NCBI GenBank assembly: GCA_947629475.1
Contig: CANRDV010000013.1
Coordinates: 1-33,886 of the forward strand
Length of the DNA stretch: 33,886 nt
Source: an uncultured Bacilli bacterium
GTDB taxonomy: Bacteria > Bacillota_I > Bacilli_A > RF39 > UBA660
Direction of reading: 5' to 3'
Shown: piece by piece, positions 1 to 13,474 of the stretch
How positions within the stretch are numbered: the first letter of the stretch is position 1
How the letters are laid out: each line of letters opens with the position of its first letter
Position numbers and translations under genes: made by a program
Notes under the pieces: model-generated
The model's input: only the letters and a program-made list of their open reading frames with translations
Databases searched by the model: none
Told to the model about the DNA's origin: nothing

Positions 1-1
1 T

Positions 2-192
2 AAACAGGTTGAGCGATAGTCAGCAAGTTTCTAGCCTCGGTTTTTGCTAGCGACCCTGATTTGATCAACCTGCTTATTAAAAATAACTTTTAACTAGTAT
101 TCTAGTAAAAAGCCTAAAAAACAGGTTGTTGACAAGCCAGCAAGTTTCTAGCCTCGATTTTGCTAGCGACCCTGACCAGCCAACCTGTTTTT
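2..192. repeat. Two tandem copies of a ~75-nt hairpin element
   Basis: Copy 1 spans about 2-76 and copy 2 about 118-192. Each is closed by a terminal inverted repeat (ACAGGTTG near the left end, CAACCTG near the right end). Each carries an almost identical ~38-nt core (21-59 and 138-175) containing CTAGC...GCTAGC and ending GACCCTGA. The 5-7 nt linkers between core and outer stem differ completely. The core can form CTAGC/GCTAG or, alternatively, AGCAA/TTGCT. Copy 2 is followed by T-runs on both strands, so either strand could be a transcribed RNA or a terminator. A conserved core with variable linkers suggests a structured RNA or a mobile hairpin. I do not recognise the family. Confidence 0.6.
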
Positions 193-257
193 AAAGCAGA
201 TTTTTCAAAATCAACCTAGTCCACATTGGAAAGAGTTGACCGAATATCTGCTTTTTC
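193..257 (+). terminator. Hairpin element followed by a T-run
   Basis: AAAGCAGAT (193-201) pairs with ATCTGCTTT (246-254) and is followed by Ts on the plus strand. The interior holds a second stem, TCAAC/GTTGA, and a small CCA/TGG hairpin, giving a stacked structure. It adjoins the two tandem hairpins but does not share their core. It may be an intrinsic terminator for a transcript entering from the left edge. Confidence 0.45.
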
Positions 258-304
258 TATTCTATTATATCGTTAAATATATAAGCAATTATTTAAACAA
301 ATTA

Positions 305-333
305 TTGACATTAAAGTCATATTATGATATATT
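305..333 (+). promoter_or_regulatory. Promoter for a small RNA
   Basis: TTGACA (305-310), a 17-nt spacer and TATATT (328-333) with an upstream TG (extended -10). The predicted start is near 340, immediately before the left arm of the hairpin at 342-411. No plus-strand coding region follows before that hairpin's T-run. Confidence 0.6.
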
Positions 334-339
334 ATTATC

Positions 340-416
340 AGAAATCAATGTCTCGAAAGCTCGATCTGCGTTAGTATTTATTACTGATGTTCCGAGTTGA
401 GATATTGATTTTTTTC
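340..416 (+). ncRNA. Probable ~75-nt structured small RNA, antisense to the end of the neighbouring gene
   Basis: A strong promoter ends just upstream. The closing stem AAATCAATGTCTC (342-354) with GAGATATTGATTT (399-411) is followed by a T-run to 415, so the RNA would end with its own terminator. An inner hairpin TTAGTA/TACTGA (371-387) fits inside. The right half overlaps the last ~35 nt of the minus-strand gene ending at 381 and could act in antisense or serve as that gene's 3' structure. I considered a hammerhead fold because of GAAA and CTGATG, but the order and core do not fit. Confidence 0.45.
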
Positions 417-1253
417 TAATCGTTGAACTCTATACTGATTTGTACCATCATGCATAGACCTAACTTCAATTTCTAAACTATATTTTATTCCGTTTATTTC
501 TAAATTATCAAAATAATAATTCCAATAAAAAATTTCATCTCTGTTTTTATTTTCGTTACTTTGACTAACCAATTTTATATGATTAATAATATTTCCTAAT
601 TCTGAAAATACTAATAAATGTTCTTTTAATAGGCTTCTTTGTTTACTACTATTAAATATTTTATTAATGCTTTCTTCTATTCCGTTATTTGATACTAAAA
701 TAAAATTATTTTTATTATTAAATATATTTTTTAAATTATAATTTTTGAAAATTTTTTTAGCAAGGGTTTTAGTATTATTTGAAGTCAAAGTATTAATATC
801 TATTTCTTCTAATTCTTTTATACTAGTATTCCATATTTTTACATTATCATTATAATTATTACCTTCATACGCAAATATTTCTTCAAAATTTTTATACCTA
901 TTTAATAAATTTAAATCAATAGGAATATTACCTTTAGTAACTTTAATCTTACTCCATACTTTATCTACTTTATTCCACATAGACTTAACATCTATTAATA
1001 AATCTTTAGTAATAAGATTATCCTTTAAAGATAAAATAGTCTTATATATCCTTTCAAATAAACTAGGACATTCTTTATAGATAACTTTAATAAACTCTTG
1101 ATTACAAAATATATTATCATTAATATAATTCATAATATCATTAGATATATAATTTATACCATATGATTGTTTTAAAGAATCTATTAAATAATTAAATTCT
1201 AAATTTTTATTTATATAGATTAAAAGTAGTCTTTTAAAACATGTATTTATCAT
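381..1253 (-). CDS. Protein with phage polyvalent-protein-like (LPD3/PBECR-type) C-terminus
   Basis: 290 residues, soluble, no signal peptide. Residues about 200-280 resemble the small domain at the end of phage polyvalent/MuF-associated proteins (LPD3, barnase-EndoU-ColicinE5/D-RelE-like group). The cues are a segment around LLVFSELGNIINHIKLV, then a beta-rich stretch with FDNLEINGIKYSLEIEV and HDGTNQYRVQRLE. The N-terminal 150 residues are helical and unrecognised. Start: ATG at 1253 has an AAGGAG Shine-Dalgarno and a TTGTAT-16-TATAAT promoter (1274-1301). No phage genes surround it, so it may be a phage remnant or a stand-alone nuclease/toxin-like protein. The last ~10 residues are encoded inside the small RNA hairpin. 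Domain assignment is from pattern memory and is moderate. Confidence 0.6.
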   Translation of the reverse strand: MINTCFKRLLLIYINKNLEFNYLIDSLKQSYGINYISNDIMNYINDNIFCNQEFIKVIYKECPSLFERIYKTILSLKDNLITKDLLIDVKSMWNKVDKVWSKIKVTKGNIPIDLNLLNRYKNFEEIFAYEGNNYNDNVKIWNTSIKELEEIDINTLTSNNTKTLAKKIFKNYNLKNIFNNKNNFILVSNNGIEESINKIFNSSKQRSLLKEHLLVFSELGNIINHIKLVSQSNENKNRDEIFYWNYYFDNLEINGIKYSLEIEVRSMHDGTNQYRVQRLEKNQYLNSEHQ

Positions 1254-1273
1254 TTTTAACTCCTTGTTTAAAT

Positions 1274-1301
1274 ATTATACAAGAATAAAATAATAATACA
1301 A
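1274..1301 (-). promoter_or_regulatory. Promoter of the 381-1253 gene
   Basis: On the minus strand TTGTAT (1296-1301), a 16-nt spacer and a perfect TATAAT (1274-1279). The start codon lies about 20 nt beyond the -10, giving a short leader with AAGGAG. Confidence 0.5.
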
Positions 1302-1371
1302 GGTTCATTTTAAATTTTTCTTGATATTTTTAAAAAAATAGTTCATACTAGTAATGTAGTAGGTGTTGTAT

Positions 1372-2667
1372 ATGAAAAAAAAGTTATTTGGAGTATTTAG
1401 TTTAATGATAGTAATTATAATTGTCTTAGTGATTACTACTATTAATAAAGATACTAACAAAACTAAAGTTAAAAATGATAATTTAAATAAAGAAAAAGAA
1501 ACTATAGAAGAAGATAGTTATATAGAAGTTATTCCTGATAATGCTAAAATTTATATAGAAGATTTAGATAATGAAGTTTTAAAAAGTCCACTTGAAATAA
1601 GTAATTTAAATGAAATTATCTTTAATAAAAGTGAATCGATGTATAATCTTGATGCTATTACTAGTATAAGCAGAAATGAAATTTTAAAACTAATAGATAC
1701 TTATAATTTACCAAGTCTTCCAAAATATAATAAAGATAAAGAAATTACAACTAATGATACTAAAGTAATTCTTGATAATAGAAATCTTGATGAAGTTAAA
1801 GATTTAGAAAGTATTCCTGATGGCGTTATAATTAAAAGAGCTAATTTAAGAAGTTTTCCTAGTAGTATAAACTTTTTTGAAAGTCCTAATCTTGAAAACT
1901 TTGATATGTTACAAGAAACTGAATTACTAGTTAATACAAGAGTCTTGATTTTACATGAAAGTAAAGATAGTAAATGGTATTTTGTTATTTCTCCTACTTA
2001 TGTAGGTTGGGTTTTAAAAGAAAATATTGCTTTATTAAATGATGAGGCCAGAGAGTTCTTCTTAAAACCTGAAAAATTTATTGTTATAACAGATGCTAGT
2101 CTAACTATTGATGATATTATTTTAGATATGAGTGTTAAATTACCTTATTTAGGAACTTCTGGTGATTTCTATCAAGTAAGTATTCCTGTTTTAGGTGCCA
2201 ATAATTTAGCAGTAAGAAAAACAATTAATATAAAAAAAGATAAAGCCCATATTGGATATCTTCCTTATACTAAAAGAAATGTTATAATAGAAGCATTCAA
2301 GTATGAAGGTGTTCCCTACTCTTGGAGTGGACTTGATAAAAATGTTGATTGTTCAAGTTTTGTTTCTAATATTTACAGAACCTTTGGCATTGAGTTTCCT
2401 AGAAATACTAGTAGTCAAAATAAAAGTGTTGGAGTAATTACTAGTCTTAAAGATAAAACAAATGAAGAAAAATTAAAACTTATTGAAAATAAAGCCCCAT
2501 TACTTTTATATCAATCAGGACATGTCCTTCTTTATATCGGAGAACATGATAATAAACATTATGTAATTCACGCATCAGGTGATAAAGCCAATTTAAAAGT
2601 TTTAGTTAATGACTTAGAAACTTCAAGACATTTAGCTAAAATCTATCAATTTAATGAAATTAAATAA
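1372..2667 (+). CDS. Membrane-anchored NlpC/P60 peptidoglycan endopeptidase with SH3 domains
   Basis: Cleaves peptide stems of peptidoglycan (family knowledge: gamma-D-Glu to diamino acid bond). 431 residues: a membrane anchor or uncleaved signal at about 5-24, a charged linker, an N-terminal stabilising region, SH3b-type segments around residues 145-220 and 235-305, then the NlpC/P60 domain. The triad is visible: Cys327 in VDCSSF, His384 in SGHVLLYIG and His400 in IHASG. The architecture matches the N-NLPC_P60/SH3/SH3/NLPC_P60 family. Start: an upstream in-frame GTG at 1363 is possible, but AGGTG at 1361-1365 places initiation at ATG 1372. It is monocistronic, with a terminator directly after the stop, and divergent from the 381-1253 gene. 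The role is probably wall remodelling or turnover outside the membrane. Confidence 0.88.
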   Translation: MKKKLFGVFSLMIVIIIVLVITTINKDTNKTKVKNDNLNKEKETIEEDSYIEVIPDNAKIYIEDLDNEVLKSPLEISNLNEIIFNKSESMYNLDAITSISRNEILKLIDTYNLPSLPKYNKDKEITTNDTKVILDNRNLDEVKDLESIPDGVIIKRANLRSFPSSINFFESPNLENFDMLQETELLVNTRVLILHESKDSKWYFVISPTYVGWVLKENIALLNDEAREFFLKPEKFIVITDASLTIDDIILDMSVKLPYLGTSGDFYQVSIPVLGANNLAVRKTINIKKDKAHIGYLPYTKRNVIIEAFKYEGVPYSWSGLDKNVDCSSFVSNIYRTFGIEFPRNTSSQNKSVGVITSLKDKTNEEKLKLIENKAPLLLYQSGHVLLYIGEHDNKHYVIHASGDKANLKVLVNDLETSRHLAKIYQFNEIK

Positions 2668-2687
2668 ACTCTTTGGAGTTTTTTTTC
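2666..2687 (+). terminator. Intrinsic terminator of the NlpC/P60 gene
   Basis: AACTC (2667-2671), a TTTG loop and GAGTT (2676-2680), followed by a run of eight Ts. The stem overlaps the TAA stop. Confidence 0.8.
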
Positions 2688-2695
2688 ATATTTGC

Positions 2696-2730
2696 TTGAC
2701 AAATGTTATATACTGTTATATAGTGTATAT
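2696..2730 (+). promoter_or_regulatory. Promoter and probable GntR operator
   Basis: TTGACA (2696-2701), a 17-nt spacer and TATAGT (2719-2724). An interrupted palindrome, ATATAC then 11 nt then GTATAT (2707-2729), covers the -10. YtrA-subfamily GntR repressors typically bind such sites in front of their own operon, so autorepression is inferred. Confidence 0.6.
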
Positions 2731-2742
2731 ATGAGGTGATGA

Positions 2743-3126
2743 ATTATTAAAATTATTATTAGTAATAGTAGTCCAATTCCTATCTACGAACAAATAAAAA
2801 ATGCTATCATCGAAGATATCATGAATGAGGAATTAAAAGAAAACGAACCTCTTCCTTCGATTAGAAATCTGGCAAGTGACCTAAAAATAAGTATCATGAC
2901 AATTAAGAAAGCTTACGATGAATTAGAAAATGATGGATATATCATGAGTGTTCAAGGAAAAGGAACTTTTATAGCACCCAAGAATAAAGAATTAATTAAG
3001 GAAAATGCTTGTAAAGAAATGGAAGACTACTTATTAAAAGCAAGTTTAATTGCTAAAAACTTTGAAATTAGTTTAGCTGAAATGAAAGAATTATTAAATA
3101 TTATTTATAGGAGTGATGAAAATTGA
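2743..3126 (+). CDS. GntR-family (YtrA-like) transcriptional regulator, start codon irregular
   Basis: A winged-helix repressor of the ABC cassette that follows. The protein reads IIKIIISNSSPIPIYEQI, then LPSIRNLASDLKISIMT, then YIMSVQGKGTF, the classic GntR DNA-binding domain with a short YtrA-type C-terminal helix (127 residues, normal length). The first ATG in this frame (2821) would delete about 26 conserved N-terminal residues. The conserved N-terminus instead begins at ATT 2743 or 2746, behind AGGTG (2734-2738). An ATG at 2739 lies in another frame and stops after three codons. Either ATT is the start codon or one extra A after ATG has broken the gene. Its stop overlaps the next start (TTGA at 3123-3126). 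Confidence 0.8.
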   Translation: MIKIIISNSSPIPIYEQIKNAIIEDIMNEELKENEPLPSIRNLASDLKISIMTIKKAYDELENDGYIMSVQGKGTFIAPKNKELIKENACKEMEDYLLKASLIAKNFEISLAEMKELLNIIYRSDEN

Positions 3127-11803: not shown

Positions 11804-13474
11804 ATGAATAAAGAGTCAAAAACTCGATTTGTTATTTTAGGTGGATTAGGTGAAATTGGTAAAAATATGTATGCCTTAGAGCATGAAGATGAAATTATCA
11901 TTATTGATGCTGGTATCTCATTTGCTGAACTTACAATGTTAGGGATTGACTATGCAATTCCTGATTATACTTATTTACATGAAAATGAAAGTAAGATTAA
12001 AGCTCTTTTTATAACACATGGTCATGAAGACCATATCGGAGCTATTCCTGTTTTACTAAGTAGTATTGATGTAAAAAATATCTATGCACCTAATCAAGCA
12101 GTGGAACTTATCAAGTTAAAATTAAATGAAAAGAATATTCGTTTTGATAATTTATTTGCTTATAAAAGTGATGATGTTATTAAATTTAAACACTTTGAAG
12201 TTGACTTTTTTAGAACAACCCACTCTATTCCGGATTCACATGGAATAAGAGTTAAAACTCCAAATGGAGTTGTTGTTACAACCGGAGACTTTAAGTTTGA
12301 TTTTACTCCAATTGGTCCAATGGCTGATTTACATAAAATGGCAAGAATTGGAGAAGAAGGGGTTGATCTATTAATAAGTGATTCAACTAATGCTTTAAAT
12401 GATGGAATATCAAGAAGTGAATCATCAGTAGATGCTGCTTTAAATGATATCTTTGATGATGAAAGAAATTCAAGAATTATCATTGCAACCTTTGCATCTA
12501 ATATTTATAGATTAAAACATATAGTTGAAACTTGTTATAAACATAATAGAAAAATATGTATCTTTGGAAGAAGTATGGAAGCTAACATTGATATTTCTAT
12601 TAAAGGTGGTTATATAAATCATAAAGAACTATTTATTTCCCCAGAAGAAGCCAATACTTTAAAACCAAAAGATGTTTGTATTCTTTGTACCGGAAGTCAA
12701 GGAGAGCCTCTTGCTGCTTTATCAAGAATTGCAGACCTTGAACATAAACATATTAAATTAAGACCAGATGATGTTGTAATATTCTCATCTTCCCCTATTC
12801 CCGGAAATGGTTTAAGTATCTCAAGAACTATTAATAAATTATATTTACAAGGTGTTAAAGTTTATACTAATACAACTAATTCTAATATTCATACCTCAGG
12901 TCATGCTAATAAAGAAGAATTAAAGTTAATGATAAGATTACTAATGCCTAAATATATGTTACCATTTCATGGAGAATATAGAATGTTAAAAAGTCATGCT
13001 GACATTGCTAACATGTGTGGAGTTTCTAAAGAAAATATTTTTATCTTAGATAATGGAGATACTTTAGAACTTAATAAAGGTAAAATAACAATCGGTGAAA
13101 AGATAAAAATGGATGATATTTATATAGGTGGTTCAAGTGCTGGTGAGATTGCTACTCAAGTAGTAAGAGATAGAAAAATCATGGCAAGTGATGGTATCTT
13201 AGTAATAGTTGCTAATATTGATATTAGAAATCGAAAGTTATTAAGTAAACCAATTGTTGTAACCAGAGGATTTATTCAAGTAAATGAAAATGAAGAATTA
13301 ATAAAAATGTTAGAAATAAAATCTAGTTTATTAATTACTAATAAGTTAAAAGAAAGTATGATTACTTTCCAAGATATAAAAAGTTTTGTCCAAGCAAATG
13401 TAATTACTTACATAATGGAACTAACAGGACGTAAACCTATTATCTTACCAATTATATTGGATATTAAAAAGTAG
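11804..13474 (+). CDS. rnjA: Ribonuclease J
   Basis: A 5'-3' exo- and endoribonuclease central to mRNA turnover and rRNA maturation. 556 residues, matching RNase J1. Metallo-beta-lactamase motif THGHEDHIGAIP with His72, His74, Asp76 and His77. A beta-CASP insertion follows (RIIIATFASNIYRLKHIV; CILCTGSQGEPLAALSRIA), then NTTNSNIHTSGHANKEELK and PFHGEYRML, and a C-terminal dimerisation domain. AAAGGAGG lies upstream of ATG 11804. It is monocistronic between its own promoter and a strong terminator. I name it rnjA rather than rnjB by length and similarity. One homologue is visible here and a second could lie elsewhere. Confidence 0.95.
   Translation: MNKESKTRFVILGGLGEIGKNMYALEHEDEIIIIDAGISFAELTMLGIDYAIPDYTYLHENESKIKALFITHGHEDHIGAIPVLLSSIDVKNIYAPNQAVELIKLKLNEKNIRFDNLFAYKSDDVIKFKHFEVDFFRTTHSIPDSHGIRVKTPNGVVVTTGDFKFDFTPIGPMADLHKMARIGEEGVDLLISDSTNALNDGISRSESSVDAALNDIFDDERNSRIIIATFASNIYRLKHIVETCYKHNRKICIFGRSMEANIDISIKGGYINHKELFISPEEANTLKPKDVCILCTGSQGEPLAALSRIADLEHKHIKLRPDDVVIFSSSPIPGNGLSISRTINKLYLQGVKVYTNTTNSNIHTSGHANKEELKLMIRLLMPKYMLPFHGEYRMLKSHADIANMCGVSKENIFILDNGDTLELNKGKITIGEKIKMDDIYIGGSSAGEIATQVVRDRKIMASDGILVIVANIDIRNRKLLSKPIVVTRGFIQVNENEELIKMLEIKSSLLITNKLKESMITFQDIKSFVQANVITYIMELTGRKPIILPIILDIKK

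Follow-up and report, generated by a model that had tools for sequence, protein, structure and literature searches.

The two hairpins at the left edge of the window (the whole stretch of 33,886 nucleotides analysed here, which is the entire contig C13 of an AT-rich genome) belong to an extensive and hitherto undescribed family of RNA genes tied to LPD3, a domain of polyvalent proteins (PF18798; PMC5512222, consulted in part) that we identify as the protein partner of the hairpin RNA. The association of the RNA family with LPD3 is solid: the RNA gene is located flush behind the domain and matches it in class, with further copies farther back. From the evidence in the DNA, we consider it probable (about 0.6) that the hairpins of the window, here termed class A, are orphan immunity RNA, i.e., an antidote to an LPD3 toxin. 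In the portions of the open-access literature consulted, we found no report of such a pairing between LPD3 and an RNA.

The paired hairpins and their copies

An earlier note, based on the letters of the DNA, had described a repeat of two units with a common core, and this description holds. Hairpin 1 (2–75) and hairpin 2 (119–192), both on the + strand with starts 116–117 nt apart, share a core of 38 and 37 nt (CAGCAAGTTTCTAGCCTCG..GCTAGCGACCCTG) and closing stems (AAACAGGTTG/CAACCTG), and their linkers are unrelated. The hairpin units are also richer in GC than their surroundings, as had been observed (37–43% vs. 12–29% across the following 1300 nt). On the + strand, each unit is more stably folded than dinucleotide shuffles (z −3.5 and −3.7; 1 and 0 of 200 shuffles as good). 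Of two stems proposed as mutually exclusive, CTAGC/GCTAG is present in both predicted structures and in the consensus, whereas AGCAA/TTGCT is conceivable on paper but absent from both MFE structures. A small linker hairpin at 85–112 (+; CTTTTAACTAG/CTAGTAAAAG), found in 6/6 double units, had been overlooked, as had the hairpin elements to the right (193–256 and 343–410) and the role of hairpin 2, whose closing stem and T-run form an intrinsic terminator. When positions 1–200 were folded whole, a competing structure emerged in which hairpins 1 and 2, instead of forming individually, pair mutually over a large part of their length (−58.8 kcal/mol, z −4.7).

Counting the window, six copies of the class A double unit are spread over two genomes of the genus, and chance is thus excluded. 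The other copies are located on contig C71 (one) and in genome G007 (four, on contigs C7 and C44), and a partial copy with a single unit lies near the end of contig C51. With the genome of the window counted in both cases, the double unit is present in 2/17 genomes of the genus, and the class A model finds matches at E ≤ 0.01 in 4/386 genomes of the family. One of these four, the match of model R1 in genome G102 (E 0.0025), was put down to a fortuitous terminator whose stem contains CTAGC; the core pattern had 0 matches in IMG/VR.

A promoter sequence, TTGACA-17-TAxATT, precedes the RNA by ~10 nt in each of the remaining five double units and on C51 (TTGACA-17-TACATT, starting at 13316), and a run of 5–7 T follows hairpin 2 in 6/6 double units. 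From these promoter and terminator sequences we infer that hairpins 1 and 2 are transcribed as one unit. For the copy in the window the promoter would lie beyond the left contig edge, which is an assembly junction: positions 1–61 are identical over 61 nt to 13352–13412 of C51 (G000, locus L020) and diverge beyond. Because these 61 nt are shared and C51 is syntenic with contig C7 of G007, C51 probably holds the missing left side of the window. Elsewhere on C51 (2023–2746), a direct repeat of ~450 nt with 92% identity bears no relation to the hairpins.

The class A consensus of 12 hairpins comprises 20 pairs, six of them with double compensatory changes, and its paired columns contain 9 G.T vs. 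1 A.C. Searches of Rfam returned only an unrelated, chance snoRNA match at 2027–2064 for window positions 1–3000 (E ≤ 5), and 0 matches at the gathering score for 20 loci with other RNA classes. Twister, hammerhead and preQ1-like motifs were considered and dropped. With promoter, terminator and compensatory changes, and no match in Rfam, the hairpins qualify as an RNA class, one of the possibilities raised originally. The counterevidence named alongside it, membership in a known RNA family or ordinary terminators at many loci, was looked for and did not turn up; hairpin 2 doubles as the terminator of its own RNA.

A probable antisense RNA gene behind the LPD3 domain

Contrary to the earlier view that no gene explains the hairpins, the convergent LPD3 gene does. 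It encodes a 290-aa protein on the minus strand (381–1253), in which residues 1 to ~120 are near-constant among loci and the C-terminal LPD3 tip is variable (domain at 432–770, minus strand). The domain scores 34 bits against a Pfam cut-off of 27; phage domains reach 101 (L113), 100 (L119) and 80 bits (L115), and two of six class members fall below the cut-off (23.3 and 21.9 bits). Conserved residues of LPD3 include H, K/R and W/YY. On the + strand, a promoter detected by scanning (TTGACA-17-TATATT, 305–333) precedes the class C hairpin-terminator RNA (343–410), which is flush with the domain end, overlaps the final codons of the gene and is presumably the cognate RNA of the window LPD3. Another element of orphan-like character is a class B hairpin (AAAGCAGAT..ATCTGCTTTTT; 193–256, + strand), for which the scan detected no separate promoter at this site; relatives with promoter occur at L049, L053, L060 and L081.

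Relatives of the window protein are found in 17/386 genomes of the family, six of them in open frames of >1000 aa. The contig of L060 carries a Pfam terminase gene, and L061 resembles a phage late region by eye. The 290-aa protein itself matched 0 families in PADLOC, and gave only E values of 0.07 and 0.14 in PHROGs and of 0.27 or worse among PDB sequences. Applied to 16 loci of such relatives, the class A model yielded weak matches in three (E 0.0003 and up), two directly behind the LPD3 end and one before the gene, with equal stem ends and different cores; inspection of these sites revealed several hairpin classes behind the LPD3 domain.

A scan of 23 sources for promoter, hairpin and T-run retrieved 25 units, all of which follow the LPD3 pattern or are its orphan copies except for four unrelated ones (L066, two in L068, one in L069). 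When loci from IMG/VR and GTDB genomes were included and up to three promoter mismatches allowed, an antisense promoter-hairpin unit lies ≤230 nt from the LPD3 end in 45/50 domain hits, which owing to overlapping loci (e.g., L053/L089, L060/L088) are not 50 independent cases but 40 distinct zones and include two weak hits in L110 (E 0.001 and 0.0003); 38 of the 45 units lie at −7 to +25 nt. The five hits without a unit comprise L021 (hairpin, no promoter), L055 and L103 (one locus with tandem hairpins), L077 (hairpin, weak promoter) and L105 (units farther out). The 50 are distinct from loci matching by their N-terminus only, from L049, L050, L109 and L111 (scanned, no LPD3 hit), from L075 and L076 (which passed Pfam and failed the local HMM) and from L112–L125, which were added later; L078 was discarded by eye as an unrelated gene.

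Strict promoters delimit 64 units in 340 kb, 48 of which are antisense at LPD3 ends, compared with 0 in sense orientation in the same zones. The spacer is 17 nt in 48/48 of these, with 16–18 permitted. A strict unit is present in 34/40 distinct zones, compared with 0.025 on average, and never more than 1, across 40 mononucleotide shuffles. Of the 16 strict units elsewhere, ten share the antisense orientation and lie farther behind an LPD3 end, at 264–465 nt; the class C copy in L022 accounts for one, and five are unrelated or unchecked. No promoter-hairpin unit was detected in L062, L063 and L064, giant-ORF loci that are N-terminal relatives with no LPD3 hit.

In the giant proteins the reading frame continues through both hairpin and promoter. 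A linker peptide, 'NSTTTNQNSQI' in L050 and 'NSTTNNQNSQI' in L060, reads TTGACT-17-TAGAAT on the opposite strand. Repeats of this peptide accompany three promoter-hairpin units in a degenerate array in L050 (G113:C55, 4465–5650), an orphan RNA array with no LPD3 hit. Two tandem LPD3/RNA cassettes occur on one contig in L098 (1361–2890), and in L055 (5009–5581) a protein with a PBECR3 domain (PF18812, E 2.5e-19), another phage nuclease family, is encoded behind the LPD3 gene.

Beyond the family, three other bacterial families of the class are represented by L075 and L076, which have the unit, and L077, with its hairpin and weak promoter; the hairpins ending LPD3 in these three and in L071, from the same family as the window, have z scores of −4.6 to −10.3. 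Burkholderia phage BgManors32, phage WC36-2 and six IMG/VR contigs have in common a class G hairpin behind LPD3, with antisense TATAAT/TATACT in 8/8 rows (seven distinct), poor −35 boxes, dinucleotide z scores of −0.9 to −2.6 (five measured) and a weak consensus fold, perhaps because flanks were included. Phage contigs L114, L115 and L117 combine hairpins (z −4.9 to −6.9) with antisense TTATCTTTG, which fits the Bacteroides promoter. Achromobacter phage L109 has a z score of −3.6 at one register (mononucleotide shuffles) and of −0.65 at another. LPD3 queries from two IMG/VR contigs had no match in GenBank phages, and one of them also none in plasmids; two other LPD3 queries matched two and five phage records. 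A scan of IMG/VR with the L071 domain gave 22 stretches, 0 of which were confirmed.

Class D gives indications of the functional strand. Among its 24 hairpins, 9/17 pairs are doubly changed, 16/408 cells are unpaired (eight of these being trimming gaps) and the paired columns hold 26 G.T vs. 3 A.C; in a subset of 20 hairpins the figures are 9/17, 4/340 and 34 vs. 1. The consensus fold has −19.8 kcal/mol on the promoter strand vs. −12.6 kcal/mol on the other. As G.T pairs exist only on the promoter strand, the RNA of that strand is what selection seems to keep. MFE alone failed as a strand indicator (32 vs. 32 across 64 hairpins); the mean MFE difference over these hairpins is −2.15 kcal/mol in favor of the promoter strand (p 0.02). 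Several unpaired bases are invariant, namely A19 and C56 in class D (20/20) and A24, A25, T29, C50 and C54 in class A (12/12). That the outer stem of class D varies beside such bases suggests that the core is recognized by a partner.

LPD3 is not known to be toxic. Two AlphaFold models were built from separate alignments, one for the window LPD3 (pLDDT 88.6, pTM 0.82) and one for an IMG/VR relative of the Burkholderia-phage LPD3 (pLDDT 79.8, pTM 0.71), and PDB chains ranked by Foldseek were re-aligned with VIA. For both models the top match is 6cp9, a CdiA (CDI) toxin-immunity complex (Z 5.2 over 93 residues and Z 5.8 over 89 residues, each at 3.3 Å); further matches include other CDI entries and MqsR (3hi2, MqsR/MqsA; Z 3.9 and 4.3). 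Judging from residue numbering, the matched chains are probably the toxins, and we take the 6cp9 and 3hi2 matches to be BECR RNase folds. All Z values are <8, the list for the second model includes unrelated chains at Z 4–5.3 and a Foldseek search of the PDB with the first model gave nothing at E ≤ 0.001, so that the models resemble BECR RNase toxins only weakly. Pfam gives LPD3 only, and ToxN, CptN and TenpN are not named in the VIA matches, which says little against these or other BECR families.

Joint exchange of tip and RNA

RNA class follows LPD3 clade. Across 34 pairs, which contain one duplicated contig (L065/L091), RNA similarity correlates with LPD3 identity (Spearman rho 0.75; 0/2000 permutations), a match that could reflect co-inheritance without contact. 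A stronger argument comes from a single orthologous locus. Window positions 409–2099 and 18318–19999 of contig C7 in G007 are one locus, in which residues 1–120 of the two proteins are 80–93% identical and the tips 31–53%. Behind the tip, the window carries class C and G007 carries class A. With the tip of G139, from another genus and likewise with class C RNA, the window tip shares 67% identity, vs. 48% with its own orthologous locus. Against three homologues, identity per 30 columns is 80–96% for residues 1–120 and 27–63% thereafter; in these alignments the protein has the constant N-terminus and variable C-terminal tip of polymorphic toxins.

Judged from the aligned loci, tip and RNA were switched jointly and the old RNAs stayed behind: in the window, class B and class A RNAs persist behind the new pair of tip and class C. 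A second place in C7 of G007 harbors an A-A-B-C array with no listed LPD3 ORF. L021 (G000:C71, 2528–2790) does not fit the pairing rule: a type A LPD3 is followed flush by a B-like hairpin without promoter, and class A hairpins are located behind it. The earlier suggestion of hairpin-type mobile repeats was partly right, in that the elements do move, but they do so as the 3′ half of a cassette of LPD3 domain and RNA.

Possible function and relation to known systems

One mechanism could account for these patterns. LPD3 would be an RNase toxin that phages carry within giant polyvalent proteins. Directly behind it, on the opposite strand, a small gene with its own promoter would specify an RNA composed of an irregular hairpin, in some cases a tandem of at least two, followed by a terminator. 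This RNA would bind LPD3 of its own class and keep the toxin harmless in the producing cell, in the way that ToxI restrains ToxN. After recombination of a new tip and its RNA into the locus, the old RNA genes would remain as an orphan array, and the orphans could continue to shield the cell from any phage or sibling that carries the old toxin. Within the window, class C (343–410) would be the cognate RNA, and class B (193–256) and class A (2–192) would be orphans. Some antitoxin or immunity role for the RNA appears likely, and direct binding of the toxin is the probable mode. The broadest form of the proposal has about even odds, namely that phages inject polymorphic LPD3 RNase toxins, each paired with an opposite-strand antitoxin RNA that often lies inside the toxin frame, and that displaced RNAs accumulate in the genomes of hosts and prophages, where they form a protective RNA memory of phage toxins met in the past. 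This form of the proposal would cover Bacilli at least and, to judge from similar hairpins, also phages infecting Burkholderia and Bacteroides-like hosts.

The main rival, which we regard as unlikely though deserving of attention, is an antisense antitoxin of the type I kind, in which base pairing of the convergent RNA within the 3′ region of LPD3 mRNA blocks this message or causes its degradation. The geometry is equal, convergent and 3′-overlapping as in B. subtilis prophage systems, complementarity to a read-through mRNA is automatic, and long bulged hairpins suit antisense RNAs. However, the RNA covers only the sequence behind the domain and neither the domain coding sequence nor the start; cis-antisense action needs neither invariant unpaired core bases nor the compensated stem drift of class D, and orphan RNAs retain promoter and core without an adjacent cognate gene.

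Alternatively, the RNA could be cargo or cofactor, carried by an RNA-binding LPD3 into the next cell or used as its guide or scaffold. Class-specific pairing, a predicted fold that could bind RNA, and the presence of LPD3 within giant phage proteins, as in L060 with its terminase gene on the contig, agree with this; yet it predicts neither orphan arrays nor tip swaps that leave RNAs behind, and nothing points to packaging, so that we consider it improbable. Slightly more doubtful still is a purely regulatory or structural element, i.e., bidirectional terminators or antisense promoters that tune expression of the polyvalent gene. A- and T-runs do flank many hairpins and antisense promoters could disturb the gene, but the conserved cores differ with LPD3 class, the structure covaries, giant ORFs read through the hairpins and the giant-ORF loci with no LPD3 hit (L062–L064) are devoid of the unit. 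Recombination or mobile hairpin sites acting as DNA (REP/attC-like), raised in the earlier note, are very improbable despite cassette exchange at LPD3/RNA loci and, at one locus (L049; G066:C19, 7210–8769), a serine recombinase gene (Resolvase/Recombinase) ~1.2 kb from a class A-like RNA, because the promoter with its fixed 17-nt spacer, the terminator and the one-strand excess of G.T over A.C in stems argue for a transcribed, folded RNA strand.

If the RNAs are antitoxins of LPD3, the domain gains a function that its defining paper of 2017 did not assign. LPD3 was defined there (Iyer et al. 2017, PMC5512222) among the domains of polyvalent proteins of phages and conjugative elements, for which 'precise functions remain elusive', and the parts of that account consulted name no RNA partner and describe no fold for LPD3. 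The antitoxin reading also explains unannotated hairpins within giant phage genes, and under it bacteria may keep orphan antitoxin RNA arrays as immunity to injected phage toxins. The rule 'behind LPD3, other strand' finds new RNA families mechanically.

Among known systems, type III toxin-antitoxin loci (ToxIN, CptIN, TenpIN) are similar in the proposed combination of a protein RNase toxin with a structured repeat RNA as antitoxin, in tandem hairpins per transcript and in class specificity. In type III loci, RNA repeats lie upstream of the RNase toxin gene in a shared operon, a terminator separating the two, and the antitoxin is pseudoknotted (PMC5086642, consulted in part). LPD3 RNAs are instead convergent, downstream and equipped with their own promoter, and they are long irregular hairpins, for which only nested structures were computed. 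The LPD3 toxin candidate is, in addition, often part of a giant phage ORF, and orphan arrays occur.

Type I systems of B. subtilis prophages, such as txpA/RatA and bsrG/SR4, share with LPD3 the prophage location and a convergent RNA overlapping the 3′ end of the toxin gene. In yonT/SR6, the antisense RNA of 100 nt overlaps at the 3′ end (PMC5848175, consulted in part). The corresponding overlap is found here, class C RNA covering the last codons of its gene and other units lying inside read-through ORFs. Whereas the type I toxin is a small hydrophobic peptide, LPD3 is a mixed alpha/beta domain of ~115 aa whose open frames span 182 to 1984 aa, apart from one 113-aa frame at a contig edge, and its RNAs, unlike those of type I, have conserved class-specific cores. 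As the LPD3 system has neither the type III gene order nor the type I peptide toxin, it would work like either and is a member of neither.

Polymorphic toxin systems such as CdiA/CdiI, Rhs and the MuF phage toxins are known for orphan immunity arrays. They combine a constant head and an exchanged tip with a matching immunity element flush behind (PMC5576092, consulted in part). The LPD3 loci likewise have a constant N-terminus, a swapped C-terminal tip, a flush matching element and displaced orphans, but immunity would be conferred by a non-coding RNA encoded opposite the toxin gene rather than by a small protein; if this is true, polymorphic toxins can be checked by RNA instead of immunity proteins.
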